A stretch of DNA of 41,081 bases from a virus, in the IMG/VR virus record IMGVR_UViG_3300032116_000486, positions 1-41,081 of that record; one strand, 5' to 3'. A program made the position numbers and the translations under genes. The notes beneath the pieces were generated by a model that saw only the letters and a program-made list of their open reading frames with translations, had not been told where the DNA came from and made no database searches. Positions 24,493-40,587 of the stretch are shown here, in pieces (the stretch's first letter is position 1; each line of letters opens with the position of its first letter).

Positions 24493-24522
24493 TAGCACCA
24501 CCCTCCACAGCACCAAAGCGAA

Positions 24523-24560
24523 GCCCCCCACCCCCAGTCACTCGACTGGAGGTGGGGGGC
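24523..24560. terminator. bidirectional terminator between converging operons
   Basis: Bases 24523-24539 pair with 24544-24560 (17 positions, one mismatch) around a four-base loop. It lies exactly between the rightward late genes, ending at 24445, and the leftward operon, ending at 24570, so it can stop both. TCT follows on the + strand and CTT on the other. Confidence 0.8.
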
Positions 24561-24569
24561 TCTGCTGCG

Positions 24570-24773
24570 TTACCGGGCGGTGAAGTAGGACACGACGCCG
24601 ACGACAACGGACGCTGCCAGGAAGGCAACGGCCGCGACGGCCGACGCGGTGGCGATGAGCGGGATGACGTAGGTCTTGTCCGGTGTCCAGCCCCCGTAGA
24701 TCAGGGCTCCGATGGCGGCGAGGACGAACATGACGACCGACGTGAGGCCGAGGATGACGGCGAGGCGGCTCAT
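24570..24773 (-). CDS. two-helix membrane protein
   Basis: A 67-residue protein, last in the leftward operon. It has two membrane helices (about 5-27, VILGLTSVVMFVLAAIGALI, and 38-63, PLIATASAVAAVAFLAASVV) joined by a short loop. It overlaps the previous gene by four bases. It could be a holin-like or membrane-exclusion protein. The operon appears to be driven from the lysogeny region, which argues for a role other than lysis. Confidence 0.55.
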   Translation of the reverse strand: MSRLAVILGLTSVVMFVLAAIGALIYGGWTPDKTYVIPLIATASAVAAVAFLAASVVVGVVSYFTAR

Positions 24774-24982
24774 CGCTTGCCCCTAGCCTTGCGGACGGTC
24801 ATGCGGTCGATGCCGGCGAGCCGGGCGGCCTCATGCTCGTAGCCGCCCGCATCGCAGTACTCGACCACGCCGGCCAGCACCTCCGCGTAGATCGCGGCCT
24901 GCTTCTCCCGCGCCTTCGCCAGGGCCTTGCCCTTGGCTTTCAGCGCCAGTCCCAGCCCCAACTCGTAATCCTTGAGCTCCAT
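24770..24982 (-). CDS. small HTH-like protein
   Basis: Start taken at the ATG at 24982, overlapping the previous stop; 70 residues. The middle is a Lys/Ala-rich helix (LALKAKGKALAKAREKQAAI). The C-terminus (HEAARLAGIDRMTVRKARGK) looks like the recognition half of a helix-turn-helix, similar to small phage DNA-binding proteins. A regulatory role inside this operon is an inference. Confidence 0.55.
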   Translation of the reverse strand: MELKDYELGLGLALKAKGKALAKAREKQAAIYAEVLAGVVEYCDAGGYEHEAARLAGIDRMTVRKARGKR

Positions 24983-25170
24983 CAGGTGGTGTCCTTTCTC
25001 GGTGTGATCGTGACGGTGATATCGGTGTCGTTGCCGTGCCCCTCGACCTCGATGACGTACGAGGTGTGGAACGCGCACATGGTCTCGGTCAGGTCGCCCA
25101 GGTCAGGGTCGACGCGGACGATCGTGAAGCGGGGCTCGTCTTCGCAGTCGACCCACGGGCAGGCGGCCAT
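24982..25170 (-). CDS. 62-residue Cys/His protein
   Basis: Has CPWVDC near the start and MCAFHTSY in the middle (Cys4, Cys9, Cys32, His35), which could bind one zinc. The rest is beta-rich (YVIEVEGHGNDTDITVTITP). Overlaps of one base on both sides show a compact operon. Not recognised. Confidence 0.52.
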   Translation of the reverse strand: MAACPWVDCEDEPRFTIVRVDPDLGDLTETMCAFHTSYVIEVEGHGNDTDITVTITPRKDTT

Positions 25171-25418
25171 CAGGCGTTCCTGTAGGCGCGAATGTGGCGC
25201 TTGATCTTCTCGATGGCCGGGTTGTCGTACTCCTCGAACTCCCAGGGCGCGGCCTCATCGAGGAGACCCCACTTGCACAGGCGGTCGATGAAGTCCTCCC
25301 AGTCGATCCGCTCGTCGTCCGAGAACCAGCCGTCGTACACCTCTTCCGCGGCCGTCAGCATCGCCGGCGTCACGTCGGCTGCCGTGGACGGGTAGAAGAT
25401 GGCGTTGAGGTCAGGCAT
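25170..25418 (-). CDS. 82-residue acidic protein
   Basis: An acidic, aromatic-rich helical protein (EEVYDGWFSDDERIDWEDFIDRL ... PWEFEEYDNPAIEKIKRHIRA). It overlaps the upstream gene by eight bases and the downstream gene by one. I do not recognise it. Small acidic phage proteins sometimes inhibit host enzymes, but nothing here shows that. Confidence 0.52.
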   Translation of the reverse strand: MPDLNAIFYPSTAADVTPAMLTAAEEVYDGWFSDDERIDWEDFIDRLCKWGLLDEAAPWEFEEYDNPAIEKIKRHIRAYRNA

Positions 25419-25584
25419 CGGTGGCCTCCAGGGTGTGCGGGCCGCCCTGGTGCTGCTCGCACAGCGGGACCGGGCCGGACTGCGTCTGCCACAGAACCTT
25501 GGCCTGCTTGCCGCAGGAGCAGCGCACGTCCTTGCCGGCGCTGAAGCGGGCGTACAGCGTGCGGGCGTTCATCGGTAACCCCAT
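25411..25584 (-). CDS. 57-residue zinc-ribbon-like protein
   Basis: Start taken at 25584, where ATG overlaps the previous stop; a second in-frame ATG lies four codons later. The protein has RCSCGKQAKVLW and PLCEQHQGG, a CxC...CxxH set that could hold zinc. Function unknown. Confidence 0.52.
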   Translation of the reverse strand: MGLPMNARTLYARFSAGKDVRCSCGKQAKVLWQTQSGPVPLCEQHQGGPHTLEATDA

Positions 25585-25769
25585 CACTGCTCCCCGATGG
25601 TCTCGTAGCCGAGGTCGGTGCGGGCCTGCCGCTTGTTCTCCTGCAACGGCACACCGGCCTTCCGTGCGGCGGCGTACTTCGCGGACGCGGCACGCTTGCA
25701 CGCGATGCACGCCCCCTGGTTGTTGCGGCCCAGGACCGCTAGGTCGTGGTTCTTCTTGCACTTCTCCAT
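25584..25769 (-). CDS. small C-x3-H-C-x2-C zinc protein, paralogue A
   Basis: Start at the ATG at 25769 behind GAGAGGAA; 61 residues. Cys4, His8, Cys21 and Cys24 make a compact zinc site (CKKNHD ... GACIACKR), followed by a basic helix (ASAKYAAARKAGVPLQENKR). A clear relative lies at 40301-40537; residues 46-55 (KRQARTDLGY) are identical. The same Cys/His pattern occurs as a C-terminal domain in the HNH nuclease at 28954, so this may be a free-standing version of a nuclease-associated DNA-binding module. Its promoter region carries a TGTAG-N6-CTACA operator. Confidence 0.65.
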   Translation of the reverse strand: MEKCKKNHDLAVLGRNNQGACIACKRAASAKYAAARKAGVPLQENKRQARTDLGYETIGEQ

Positions 25770-25792
25770 GATGGTTCCTCTCTTCGCTGATA

Positions 25793-25808
25793 TGTAGATG
25801 GTACTACA
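25793..25808 (-). promoter_or_regulatory. operator copy 2 (TGTAG-N6-CTACA) over a -10 box
   Basis: A 5-bp inverted repeat with a six-base spacer, 23 bases before the ATG at 25769. On the - strand a possible -35 TTACTG (25821-25826) and -10 TACCAT (25798-25803) stand 17 bases apart, so the operator would block the -10 element. The same palindrome, with the same spacer length and a similar downstream leader, lies at 26130-26145. Confidence 0.6.
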
Positions 25809-26106
25809 GATTGGTAGATGCAGTAACACGCTTGTTGTGGTTCGACACCTTGATCGCGGTGCACAGCACCACGGCCGGCCACGTCAGCAGGATCGACAGG
25901 CCCAGGGTGAACACGGCCAGGACGACGGACGACAGCAGCCACAGCGTGCCCCACAGCCCACCGGCGTAGAACGCGCCCAGCGGGCCGAAGAACAACGTCA
26001 ACAGCGTCGCGGCCGCAACCGACTTCGGGGGCTGCTGGACGACCACGACCACCGGCCCAGTGGGGGCGGCGGGGCGTTCGCGGTAGACGGGGACGATGTC
26101 AGACAT
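25804..26106 (-). CDS. TM2-like membrane protein
   Basis: A 100-residue protein, first in the leftward operon, with GAGAGAGGAA before the ATG. A Pro/Val-rich N-terminus (VPVYRERPAAPTGPVVVVVQ) is followed by two membrane helices (about 30-55 and 58-88), with GPLGAFYAGGLWGTLWLL resembling the TM2-domain motif. Prophage-expressed membrane proteins of this size often alter the host envelope or block superinfection, but that role is untested here. The stop codon overlaps operator copy 2. Confidence 0.58.
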   Translation of the reverse strand: MSDIVPVYRERPAAPTGPVVVVVQQPPKSVAAATLLTLFFGPLGAFYAGGLWGTLWLLSSVVLAVFTLGLSILLTWPAVVLCTAIKVSNHNKRVTASTNL

Positions 26107-26129
26107 TGGGGTTCCTCTCTCTTGGCTGA

Positions 26130-26145
26130 TGTAGAAGAGCCTACA
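26130..26145 (-). promoter_or_regulatory. operator copy 1 (TGTAG-N6-CTACA) in the leftward promoter
   Basis: On the - strand, -35 TTGGAC (26162-26167), an 18-base spacer and -10 TAGGCT (26138-26143) form a good sigma-70-type promoter reading into the leftward operon. The palindrome covers the -10 box. A regulator bound here would repress the operon. Confidence 0.62.
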
Positions 26146-26184
26146 CCATGTCTGGGCAGATGTCCAAATCGGGGCGCCAGCCCC

Positions 26185-26213
26185 ATGTCAGACCCTTGCC
26201 CTACCCTGGGAAC
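26185..26213 (+). promoter_or_regulatory. leaderless promoter of the DUF3263-like gene
   Basis: TACCCT at 26202-26207 is followed by exactly six bases and then the ATG at 26214, so transcription would start at or next to the A of ATG. The 11-base element ATGTCAGACCC (26185-26195) lies in the spacer, as in the promoter at 27736. No good -35 is visible, so an activator may be needed. Confidence 0.55.
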
Positions 26214-26447
26214 ATGAACGACAACGACAAGGCGATCCTCGACTTCGCCGCCCGGACCTACCGCTACCCCGGCGCGCAAGCCGAAGCCATCACCACCGAA
26301 CTCGACATGCGGCCCACCCGCTACTGGCAGCGCCTCAACCACCTGCTGGACGACCCGCAGGCGCTCGCCTACGCGCCCACCACGGTCAACCGCTACCGGC
26401 GGCTACGCGACCGCGCGCACCGCAGCCAGCGCAGCATCATCATCTGA
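26214..26447 (+). CDS. DUF3263-like protein
   Basis: A 77-residue basic protein. ILDFAARTYRYPGAQAEAIT, then MRPTRYWQRLNHLLDDPQAL and TVNRYRRLRDRAHR, match the DUF3263 family of small actinobacterial proteins, which look like HTH DNA-binding proteins. It is probably made from a leaderless mRNA. It faces the integrase gene and overlaps its end by 45 bases in the opposite direction, so the two transcripts may interfere. A role in the lysogeny choice is inferred from position. Confidence 0.68.
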   Translation: MNDNDKAILDFAARTYRYPGAQAEAITTELDMRPTRYWQRLNHLLDDPQALAYAPTTVNRYRRLRDRAHRSQRSIII

Positions 26448-27302
26448 CGCCACATACACCATCGTCGTGGACACCGACACGTGCCCCAGCAACTGGCGCA
26501 CCACCATGATGTCCTTCGTCGCCGCATACACCCGCGTCGCGAACCCATGCCGCAACGAATGCGTCGAATGCCCTTGCGGCAGAACGGCTTTCACCCGCGC
26601 ATCCACGTAGTCCGGTGACACATGCTCACCCGGCCGCGCCGGCGACGGAAACAACCAGCCCGTGAACTCCTTCAGGTGGGGGGCCAGCGACGCATTGATC
26701 GGCACGACCCGATCCTTCGCCCCCTTGCCGTGCACGACCAGCCGGTCCCCACGCACATCATCACCATGCACCTGCGCGATCTCCGACAGGCGCAGGCCCG
26801 CGTGATAGCCGAGGGCCAGCATCGCCCGCGTCTGCCGGTCAGCGCGCCCATACGCCTGCTGGTACGCGTCGTCGGGCAGCGGCTTCGGCACCCCAGGGCT
26901 GGCACGGACAGGGCGCAGCCCGACCGTCGGGTCCACGTCCACGCGACCCGTGCGATGCGCCCAGCCGTAGAACGAGCGGAACGCCGCCTGCATCGACTTG
27001 CGCGTGTTCGGCGACCGGCCGCGCGCACCCAGGTACGCGACCAGGGTGTCCTCCGTCTGGTCGGCCAGCGGCCCCGTCACCGACAGCGACGCCAACTGGT
27101 AGCGGCGCAGCCGCACGGTCTTCGGTGACGCGGACGTGGCGAGCCACGCGCACCAGTCGCTAATGAGTTGCCGATCCACCTTCGTCCCCGCGATGTCAGC
27201 CAGCACCAGACCCCCGCGATCTGAAGCTCCGGCGGGAACCGTACACGGTGACGGGTTGGGGAGCGGTGACGGGTTGGGGAGCGCGACAAGATGACGCGCC
27301 AT
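26403..27302 (-). CDS. int: tyrosine integrase
   Basis: A site-specific recombinase that would integrate the phage into a host tRNA gene. I take the ATG at 27302, giving 299 residues, one base after the repressor stop; longer in-frame starts would read through the tRNA-like sequence. The N-terminus has a tandem PNPSPL repeat. An N-terminal SAM-like core-binding domain covers about 40-125. Catalytic residues are visible: Arg171 (HAGLRLSEI), Lys193 (GKGAKDRVV), His248-Arg251 (HSLRHGFATR), His274 (LLGHVSVSTT) and Tyr283. It has no promoter of its own and must be translated from the repressor mRNA. Confidence 0.9.
   Translation of the reverse strand: MARHLVALPNPSPLPNPSPCTVPAGASDRGGLVLADIAGTKVDRQLISDWCAWLATSASPKTVRLRRYQLASLSVTGPLADQTEDTLVAYLGARGRSPNTRKSMQAAFRSFYGWAHRTGRVDVDPTVGLRPVRASPGVPKPLPDDAYQQAYGRADRQTRAMLALGYHAGLRLSEIAQVHGDDVRGDRLVVHGKGAKDRVVPINASLAPHLKEFTGWLFPSPARPGEHVSPDYVDARVKAVLPQGHSTHSLRHGFATRVYAATKDIMVVRQLLGHVSVSTTMVYVASDDDAALAAVRAVA
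27246..27281. repeat. 18-bp perfect tandem repeat near attP
   Basis: Two adjacent identical 18-base units (27246-27263, 27264-27281) in the integrase start region, encoding PNPSPL twice. They lie 55-90 bases from the tRNA-like core, a distance at which arm-type integrase sites occur. Confidence 0.75.
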
Positions 27303-27303
27303 G

Positions 27304-27648
27304 TCAGGCGGCTTCGGCCAGCCAGTAACCCGACCCGTAATCGAAGGGTTCGTGGTTCGAGTCCACGTGGGGGAGCGCAGTGCCCGGCCCCGGTGTGTCA
27401 TCACTGGGGTCGGGCATTCCTGTTTCTAGCCAAGCGAAATCGACGCCTGTCGCCATTGCGATGAGCCGCAGGTAGGACGACTTCAACTTCGTCGTCGCGC
27501 CGGATTCGTAGTTGCTGATCGTGTTGCGTCCGATGCCGGTCAGGTCGGCGAGTTGCCCTTGATCCAGGGCGGCGTCCTCACGCGCCATACGGATCCGTCG
27601 TGCCGCGGTAAGTGCGGGGATGTGCCGGCCCGTGGGCTGAGTTGTCAT
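27304..27648 (-). CDS. HTH repressor with attP inside its 3' end
   Basis: A 114-residue protein with a Cro/CI-type helix-turn-helix at about 28-60 (LDQGQLADLTGIGRNTISNY). After residue about 90 the reading frame crosses a tRNA 3'-half on the other strand (LPHVDSNHEPFDYGSG), and the protein ends YWLAEAA, a small-hydrophobic ending like ssrA-type degradation tags. This matches the known mycobacteriophage integration-dependent immunity design. The free-phage protein would be unstable, and integration would replace its tail with host-encoded residues. mRNA from TAACTT-N6-ATG is probably leaderless. Repressor function and instability are inferences. Confidence 0.8.
   Translation of the reverse strand: MTTQPTGRHIPALTAARRIRMAREDAALDQGQLADLTGIGRNTISNYESGATTKLKSSYLRLIAMATGVDFAWLETGMPDPSDDTPGPGTALPHVDSNHEPFDYGSGYWLAEAA
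27336..27375 (+). other. attP core: 3' half of a tRNA gene
   Basis: The + strand shows CGTAA then TCGAA (end of an anticodon loop and stem), a variable loop GGGTT, a perfect T-arm (CGTGG at 27351-27355, loop TTCGAGT, CCACG at 27363-27367), acceptor strand TGGGGGA (27368-27374) and one further base. The upstream half is not tRNA-like, so this is a tRNA fragment carried as the crossover core. The anticodon position reads CGT, which would mean tRNA-Thr, but this is uncertain. Confidence 0.82.
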
Positions 27649-27654
27649 GTGTCC

Positions 27655-27683
27655 AAGTTACGTCACAACTGGGCAAGTAGCAA
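27655..27683 (-). promoter_or_regulatory. leaderless repressor promoter with inverted repeat
   Basis: On the - strand, -35 TTGCTA (27678-27683), a 17-base spacer, -10 TAACTT (27655-27660), then six bases and the ATG at 27648. An imperfect inverted repeat, CCAAGTT-N7-AACTGGG (27653-27673), covers the -10 box and would suit autoregulation. Confidence 0.65.
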
Positions 27684-27735
27684 CACACCACCAAAACTAG
27701 GCACGCCCAAATCACGACACGCCGGGCGTAGGTAC

Positions 27736-27771
27736 TTGACCAATGTCAGACCCATTCCCTAACTTGTGCAC
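27736..27771 (+). promoter_or_regulatory. leaderless promoter of the excisionase/Cro-like gene
   Basis: -35 TTGACC (27736-27741), an 18-base spacer holding ATGTCAGACCC (27743-27753), -10 TAACTT (27760-27765), then six bases and ATG at 27772. The spacing places the transcript start at the A of ATG. It diverges from the repressor promoter about 50 bases away. Confidence 0.7.
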
Positions 27772-27957
27772 ATGCCCAAGACCGACACCCCACTCTCCAG
27801 CGCCCAAGTCGCTGAGATCCTCGGCTGCGACGTACGCACCGTCAACCGCCGCGCCGGCGCAGGCGACATCCCCTACCTCCTGAAGATGCCCGGCAAGACC
27901 GGCGCCTACGTCTTCCTCGCAGGGGACATCGAGCGCATCCGCAAGCGCGCCGCATAG
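27772..27957 (+). CDS. excisionase/Cro-like DNA-binding protein
   Basis: A 61-residue protein with an HTH_17/MerR-type fold (LSSAQVAEILGCDVRTVNRR, then GDIPYLLKMPGKTGAYVFLA). It is the first rightward gene opposite the repressor. Such proteins act as excisionase or as the lytic Cro-like switch. I prefer the ATG at 27772 to the GTG at 27766 because the promoter points to a leaderless start there. A block of hairpins follows. Confidence 0.72.
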   Translation: MPKTDTPLSSAQVAEILGCDVRTVNRRAGAGDIPYLLKMPGKTGAYVFLAGDIERIRKRAA

Positions 27958-27960
27958 ACA

Positions 27961-28064
27961 CCGGCGGCTGCACGGCTCCCCCGTGGCCGCAGCCGCCGGC
28001 GACCCCCTCCGGGGTCACGTTGGTCCCGTCCCGTGACCGGGGAAGGCGCGGGGCGGGACCAACG
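27961..28064 (+). terminator. three-hairpin structured region
   Basis: Three hairpins in a row: 27961-27971 with 27989-27999 (11 bp, inner ACGG/CCGT extension), 28001-28006 with 28011-28016 (6 bp, loop CTCC), and 28018-28033 with 28049-28064 (16 bp, one wobble, 15-base loop). No U-runs follow. It could be an early terminator needing antitermination, or a structured RNA. No gene fits here. Confidence 0.6.
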
Positions 28065-28119
28065 CCCAGCACCACCACCCTCCCCAAACCCTCCCCCACC
28101 GCAAGAGAGGAACACCCGC

Positions 28120-28344
28120 ATGAACAGCCTCGCCATCCTCATCATCCTCACCACCGCCGCCGGGCTCTACACCATGCGCGTCCTCTACCTCGACGCCGAG
28201 CGGCAGCGCCGCAGGGCCGACCGGCTCGCCGCCCGCTGCAACGAGATGCGCACCGAGATCGAAGACCTCCACCACATCATCTGGCCCACCGAGCCAACCC
28301 AGCCCTGGAACAACGTCCGCGTCCTGAAGGACACCGACAAGTGA
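28120..28344 (+). CDS. small membrane protein
   Basis: A 74-residue protein from the ATG at 28120 behind AGAGAGGAA. One N-terminal membrane helix (SLAILIILTTAAGLYTMRVL) is followed by an Arg-rich coiled segment (AERQRRRADRLAARCNEM) and a charged tail. It overlaps the next gene. With that gene it forms a pair of small membrane proteins before a transglycosylase-like gene, the layout of a lysis cassette. Confidence 0.6.
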   Translation: MNSLAILIILTTAAGLYTMRVLYLDAERQRRRADRLAARCNEMRTEIEDLHHIIWPTEPTQPWNNVRVLKDTDK

Positions 28345-28502
28345 CCACCGCCCACGGCCTCGTCGCCGCCGGGCTGCTCGTCATCCTCATCATCCCCTTC
28401 ACCACCGTCGTCGGCCTCCGCGCCATCGAACGCCGCGACCAGCGGCTCCGCGACGCCCAGAACGCCGACGCCGCCGTCGCCCGCTGGAAGGAAACCCACT
28501 GA
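28341..28502 (+). CDS. small membrane protein
   Basis: A 53-residue protein from a GTG overlapping the previous stop (GTGA). One membrane helix (HGLVAAGLLVILIIPFTTVV) precedes a charged helix (RAIERRDQRLRDAQNADAAV). The topology resembles small spanin or holin partners, but it is not diagnostic. Stop and next start overlap (TGATG). Confidence 0.57.
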   Translation: MTTAHGLVAAGLLVILIIPFTTVVGLRAIERRDQRLRDAQNADAAVARWKETH

Positions 28503-40537: not shown

Positions 40538-40587
40538 CGTTCCGTTCCTCTCATTCGGTCCTCATCAGGGCGCGCGTCACGCGCCGA

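Follow-up and report, generated by a model that had tools for sequence, protein, structure and literature searches.

Integration-dependent immunity in phages is defined by three features: a repressor gene (rep) and an integrase gene (int) that share an operon, an attachment site (attP) lying inside rep, and an LAA-like tag (PMC9262239; papers are cited here by accession, for those passages of them that were available). In phage BPs, a changed third codon position makes a stop, a cysteine codon being turned into a stop codon (PMC9262239); the operator OR is situated between the −10 and −35 boxes of the early promoter PR, and the sequence CGACATACCGGC is said to overlap the transcription start of the repressor promoter (PMC4557955). 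Leaderless transcripts are common in mycobacteria, where they have been put at about 14% of genes (PMC7148126) or at nearly a quarter of transcripts (PMC4633059). For phages, there are earlier predictions of leaderless promoters that fire divergently, in the cluster O mycobacteriophages (PMC4351075). Here, we describe the lysogeny region of the IMG/VR virus record IMGVR_UViG_3300032116_000486, analysed over its whole length of 41,081 nucleotides (nt; the window), which comes from a phage whose high-GC host was probably an actinobacterium. We consider it likely that the phage decides between dormancy and lysis by BPs-type integration-dependent immunity, with three leaderless switch promoters.

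Promoter spacing and a duplicated probable operator

The region combines three promoters of one −10/ATG spacing, two of which are copies sharing an 11-base sequence, with half a tRNA-Asn inside rep and the rep–int gene order, and its spacing recurs in relatives. The first-pass annotation had claimed that a TANNNT box stands exactly six bases before the ATG of a DUF3263 gene (26214), of the repressor gene (27648, minus strand) and of an excisionase-like gene (27772), and that two of these boxes have a fitting −35. All of this is borne out. P(xis), a PR-like early promoter (plus strand), has a −35 box TTGACC (27736–27741), a spacer of 18 and a −10 box TAACTT (27760–27765), with six bases to the start codon (27760–27771 from box to gene). 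P(rep) (27649–27683, minus strand) has TTGCTA (27683–27678), a spacer of 17, TAACTT (27660–27655) and six bases to its ATG. P(DUF3263) (26202–26213, plus strand) consists of TACCCT (26202–26207) and the six bases before the ATG, and lacks a −35, as had been stated. Exactly these three sites, out of 1056 ATGs on both strands of the window, have TANNNT at six bases, every other distance from 0 to 13 being represented by no ATG or one. They have what marks a leaderless actinobacterial gene, namely a −10 box 6–7 nt before ATG or GTG and no Shine–Dalgarno site, and transcription would thus start at the three start codons.

The same spacing was looked for in 45 loci with related repressors (37 viral_contigs loci and eight phage records). 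Repressor starts were assigned by a rule blind to promoters, the ATG nearest the expected position, which yielded a start in 44 of them. TANNNT preceded these starts by six bases in 10 loci, by seven in 11 and by eight in 2, and by any other distance from 0 to 30 in one locus at most. Among loci with a GC content of at least 0.55, the box stood at six or seven bases in 21 of 38, compared with 1.6% of 4418 background ATGs from the same loci. On the other side of the switch, the divergent helix-turn-helix (HTH) gene had a recognisable frame in 33 of 35 loci, and 14 of these frames had a candidate start with TANNNT at six or seven bases, where the histogram again peaks. Annotated starts in four phage records also passed the −10 test (rep of Barebow, the divergent gene of SallySpecial and of Wizard, both genes of Gusanita); the 175 annotated genes of these records include only nine starts with TANNNT at five to eight bases, and five of the nine belong to repressor or divergent genes. 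Since the −10 distance recurs in distant relatives, before the repressor and before the divergent HTH gene, leaderless initiation looks like a family trait, and we hold this part of the earlier claim, leaderless starts of the three genes, to be likely. Within the literature searched, which did not extend to most subscription papers, none joins the terms "integration-dependent immunity" and "leaderless".

The repressors of SallySpecial (L055/L063) and Wizard (L059/L064) are annotated from an internal TTG, and each has an in-frame upstream ATG with a −10 box at seven bases. These two annotated starts are probably wrong, a leaderless ATG having been missed; the spacing might therefore serve as a simple rule to check annotated start codons of such repressors.

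Counted through the ATG, P(DUF3263) matches P(xis) at 27 of 34 positions (21 of 34 at the next best site of the window), and P(rep) is similar to neither. Two identical copies of the 11-mer ATGTCAGACCC are present in the window, each 6 nt before a −10 box and in the same register, one at 27743–27753 (plus strand), between the −35 and −10 of P(xis), and the other at 26185–26195 (plus strand), ahead of the −10 of P(DUF3263); P(rep) has no copy. Because the register is identical twice, and because OR of BPs lies between the −10 and −35 of PR, ATGTCAGACCC is probably an operator bound by the repressor; the place of a BPs-type operator is so occupied at both promoters, the role itself being predicted. 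The overall similarity of the promoters is not rare by itself, as 6 of 400 31-mers drawn at random from the window also matched another place at 24/31 or better and the two promoters without their ATG share 24/31; what counts is the register and the exact 11-mer. Likewise, the degenerate form ATGTCAGACMC, with at most one mismatch, has five sites in the window against 1.57 expected, and 4 of 100 shuffles reach five, so that only the two exact copies and perhaps the site at 26096 merit attention. This site, ATGTCAGACAT (26096–26106), is an odd-length palindrome over the start codon of a leftward operon and a possible third operator or repressor site. Duplicated early promoters were not seen in four other phage records (Barebow, SallySpecial, part of Wizard and Gusanita).

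The putative attachment site, the adjoining hairpin and a proposed model of the switch

The immunity repressor gene (27304–27648, minus strand) encodes a phage form of 114 amino acids (aa) with an HTH_3 domain and the tail YGSGYWLAEAA. The tyrosine integrase gene (26403–27302) lies on the same strand, its ATG at 27302 following the rep stop directly (TGACATG), and the two genes can be read from the sequence as one operon. Antisense within rep lies a putative attP core (27338–27376, plus strand) corresponding to the 3′ half of tRNA-Asn(GTT), from the anticodon side to the discriminator. Its 26 bases at 27347–27372 are identical to four genome contigs, in three of which ARAGORN found tRNA-Asn(GTT) at that place. 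Rfam gave no tRNA match in the attP region and ARAGORN no tRNA in the window, as is to be expected since the phage carries only half a tRNA. Repressor frames of relatives also end in tRNA sequence, namely tRNA-Asn in L019 and L023 and tRNA-Arg in L017; the first two repressors end in ...SNQQPFD* and ...LNQRPSD*, and the predicted prophage form of the window repressor ends in ...SNHEPFD. Seven viral contigs (L018, L020, L021, L030, L032, L041 and L052) stop exactly at the end of the repressor frame, which is expected for a prophage boundary there, with the proviso that prophages in the database may have been cut back to the end of a gene. Joining to tRNA-Asn is predicted to change TAC into TAA in rep and to give a 103-aa protein ending in HEPFD, with YGSGYWLAEAA lost. 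The tail of the phage form (...YWLAEAA) ends in AA, and a role as an ssrA-like tag is predicted for it; the integrase, which in BPs-type immunity carries a C-terminal degradation tag as well, ends here in ...AAVRAVA rather than LAA. We infer from these features both integration at tRNA-Asn and the function of the repressor tail as a degradation tag.

The attP core is abutted by a terminator-like hairpin found by a generic scan (27377–27420, plus strand), antisense in rep, with a stem of about 17–18 bp and a T-rich tail; the stretch 27372–27435 folds at −39.2 kcal/mol (z −5.92). In a first fold test of 24 genes, 20 of which could be scored, z was −3 or lower in 13 (all but L019, L021, L022, L025, L028, L030 and L031), and the adjoining stretch in these genes had z values from −1.8 to 2.3. 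A survey of 43 repressor genes, the window's included, detected a T-loop core in 30 and none in 13, the core pattern being loose and some cores (L022, L034) probably false. A hairpin with a stem of 12–19 pairs ended 1–19 nt from the core in 19 of the 30, the window among them. No hairpin was found within 19 nt of the core in the other 11, which include Angel; BPs, too, is probably without one. In 15 of the 19 hairpin genes, no more than 15 of 300 synonymous-codon shuffles give a stem of that length. The antisense side is richer in T (a mean of 4.4 in 10 vs 1.9; higher in 17 of 19 genes and lower in none), a difference that is partly confounded, as the sense side may enter the tRNA core. Twelve chosen hairpins aligned on their centres share 35% of their bases on average and 83% at most.

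For us, it is an evenly balanced question whether integration-dependent repressor genes carry an intrinsic antisense-strand terminator, encoded within the codons that immediately precede the attP core. In the prophage, such a hairpin would come right after the restored tRNA gene of the host, where it would end tRNA transcription and shield rep from antisense transcription; alternatively, it may have a role in the rep–int mRNA. If the terminator is real, its place would be kept and its stem would vary, so that a protein linker would be shaped by a DNA or RNA element relevant only in the lysogen. It would also explain how a repressor gene survives head-on joining to a transcribed tRNA gene, a question that we did not find raised in the available passages of the literature searched; the single paper there with both "integration-dependent immunity" and "terminator" means a tail terminator.

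Overall, we propose that P(rep) would drive repressor and integrase, P(xis) the early operon, and P(DUF3263) a protein that resembles NapA and probably binds DNA. In P(xis) and P(DUF3263), ATGTCAGACCC is the probable target of the repressor, and because the 11-mer is placed alike in both, these two promoters would be off in a lysogen and P(rep) would be on. Once the phage has inserted at a host tRNA-Asn gene, the TAC codon of rep would read TAA and the protein would lack its final 11 residues, which resemble a degradation tag, so that only the prophage would make stable repressor. A sighting of motifs thereby becomes a switch model that can be tested by transcript starts, by the two repressor-shut promoters, by the target tRNA and by the length of the prophage repressor. 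If the hairpin is a terminator, it would add to a switch predicted to use leaderless mRNAs on both sides, with its probable operator-promoter copied before a NapA-like gene.

Counter-evidence and rival explanations

Several points weigh against the model. P(DUF3263) may be a weak promoter or none, because it has no −35 and its −10 is C-rich. A strict TANNNT at six or seven bases is missing in 17 of the 38 high-GC repressor loci and in 19 of the 33 divergent loci, and the loci, being related by descent (for example, L017, L018 and L054, or L035 and L036), are not phylogenetically independent. The contigs that share the 26-mer with attP belong to three Sumerlaeia and one unclassified bacterium, which leaves the bacterial attachment site (attB) a prediction, and a 29-mer of the attP core matched no viral contig. 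ATGTCAGACCC before a −10 box is absent from 101 of 104 loci, the remaining three being stretches of this window. The pattern of 11-mer, −10 box and ATG matches three viral_contigs sequences (L111, L112 and L113), and in all three the 11-mer reads as a protein start MSDP.... L112 and L113 are contigs of lower GC (0.47 and 0.41) in which the matches look like the starts of other genes; near L111, Pfam places none of the nine frames of at least 100 aa in an HTH or integrase family.

It might be supposed that the TANNNT boxes are present but transcription begins further upstream, giving short leaders without Shine–Dalgarno sites. The boxes are indeed weak −10s by the Escherichia coli standard, P(DUF3263) lacks a −35, and a generic sigma-70 scan of 25600–28400 found no promoter. 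We nevertheless consider such upstream starts unlikely, as the position of the box clusters at six or seven bases across divergent loci, and CGACATACCGGC, which is said to overlap the P(rep) start in BPs (PMC4557955), corresponds at 11 of 12 bases by eye to the Angel sequence spanning the repressor start codon, the exact 12-mer not being found in the Angel locus. For the DUF3263 gene alone, the open frame that extends from 26148 would allow translation from an in-frame ATG at 26148 or 26160, in which case the box and the 11-mer would be coding sequence and only two promoters would be real. This is improbable in our view: the protein family begins at the ATG at 26214, the duplicated promoter segment stops there, and DNA similarity to the Gordonia matches listed begins at 26213–26215 in 21 of 40 and extends upstream of 26213 in none of the 40.

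The first-pass annotation had gone further and taken leaderless mRNAs at every switch gene, beside structural genes with strong Shine–Dalgarno sites, as a sign that the switch is tuned to a translation mode of its own; this could be initiation by 70S or stress ribosomes. A Shine–Dalgarno match of at least four bases is found in 42 of 48 script-called genes and in neither DUF3263 nor xis, by a permissive count (starts within 60 nt) from a script that did not call rep. In E. coli, moreover, the few leaderless genes known are mostly on mobile DNA, including lambda and P2, and their initiation is functionally distinct from that of leadered ones (PMC4633059). Against this, the integrase gene is coupled to the repressor gene, the leftward operon next to the switch, with its start at 26106, has a leader, and structural genes internal to operons cannot be leaderless whatever their control. 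The contrast that had been drawn is thus mostly one between operon-first and internal genes; among other operon-first genes, a Shine–Dalgarno match of at least four bases is found in 8 of 11 in Gusanita. For mycobacteria, leaderless translation has also been called comparably robust (PMC4633059), and protein/mRNA ratios reveal no systematic difference between leaderless and leadered genes in a source that, in the passages available, also names the alternative model of leaderless mRNAs being translated less well (PMC7148126). A distinct mode for every switch gene is therefore not supported, and a switch tuned in this way appears very unlikely; as leaderlessness follows from promoter placement, no further level of translational control has to be assumed.

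Neighbouring genes and comparison with known switches

The DUF3263 gene (26214–26447, plus strand), predicted to be leaderless and convergent with int, encodes a member of family PF11662 (E = 2.1e-23; 82.4 bits, the curated Pfam cut-off being 22.3). Its product is a relative of Mycobacterium tuberculosis NapA, both in sequence (PDB 9n2n, E = 4.7e-10; 9n2g, E = 6.5e-10) and in predicted fold (a VIA Z of 6.5 across 57 residues; Foldseek E = 0.055; model pLDDT 88.6), and is therefore probably DNA-binding. Of 39 loci with this gene in other viral contigs, which include several near-identical Gordonia phages, 28 have it overlapping an upstream frame or starting right behind one, 2 have TANNNT at five to eight bases (one of the two with an overlapping upstream frame as well), and 9 have neither such coupling nor the box. 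The simplest account would be that the early operator-promoter was duplicated and the copy came to stand before a gene whose expression in relatives is part of an operon. A 10-codon frame that might encode a leader peptide starts at the ATG of the 11-mer at 26185 and ends in a TGA that overlaps the DUF3263 ATG (by eye); it has no Shine–Dalgarno site.

About seven small genes of the leftward operon (24570–26106, minus strand) lie between the structural genes and DUF3263. The operon has a promoter TTGGAC-18-TAGGCT and a leader with AGAGAGGAA; its seven proteins had nothing in Pfam or PADLOC at E ≤ 0.01, and its genes are candidates for expression in lysogeny. A hairpin near 24510–24560 follows the operon (by eye). 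The divergent HTH gene of the window (27772–27957, plus strand; Cro/Xis-like, predicted leaderless) matches HTH_17 (E = 1.6e-6) and phrog_66, "excisionase and transcriptional regulator" (1.9e-4). Shortly past it, at 28018–28064, there is a large inverted repeat whose 16-nt arms are 94% complementary and stand 15 nt apart. The sequence AAGAGAGGAAC recurs just ahead of gene starts at 25774–25784 and 26111–26121 (both minus strand) and 28103–28113 (plus strand), and when one mismatch is allowed the window has four matches, the remaining one at 40544, where 0.26 would be expected; its placement is reminiscent of the start-associated sequences that have been mentioned for cluster K phages (PMC11373665).

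Among described systems, M. tuberculosis NapA (PDB 9n2g, 9n2n) resembles the phage DUF3263 product in sequence and predicted fold, and the phage copy differs in standing under its own, probably operator-bearing promoter. A phage repressor made from a leaderless mRNA is known in lambda, whose cI is expressed from PRM; the layout there is unrelated, and here both sides of the switch are predicted to be leaderless. The cluster O mycobacteriophages share SigA-like promoters that fire divergently with a predicted +1 at the first base of the start codon, but the available passages describe no integration-dependent immunity switch in them (PMC4351075), and here the spacing is traced across a repressor family.

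The closest systems are BPs and its relatives (clusters G, N and P, and Gordonia phages). They share with the window phage, as far as its sequence predicts, a rep–int operon, attP in rep over a tRNA 3′ half, a short alanine-ended tail lost on integration, a divergent HTH gene and an operator-like site between the −10 and −35 of the early promoter. Unlike BPs, whose attP derives from tRNA-Arg, the window phage has a putative attP from tRNA-Asn, and it has a hairpin beside the attP core that the BPs relative Angel lacks. It also differs from BPs and its relatives in its probable operator sequence and in a second copy of this operator-promoter before the DUF3263 gene. Thus, integration-dependent immunity is the known kind to which we would assign this switch, and the duplicated operator-promoter and the probable attP-side terminator are what would be new in it.

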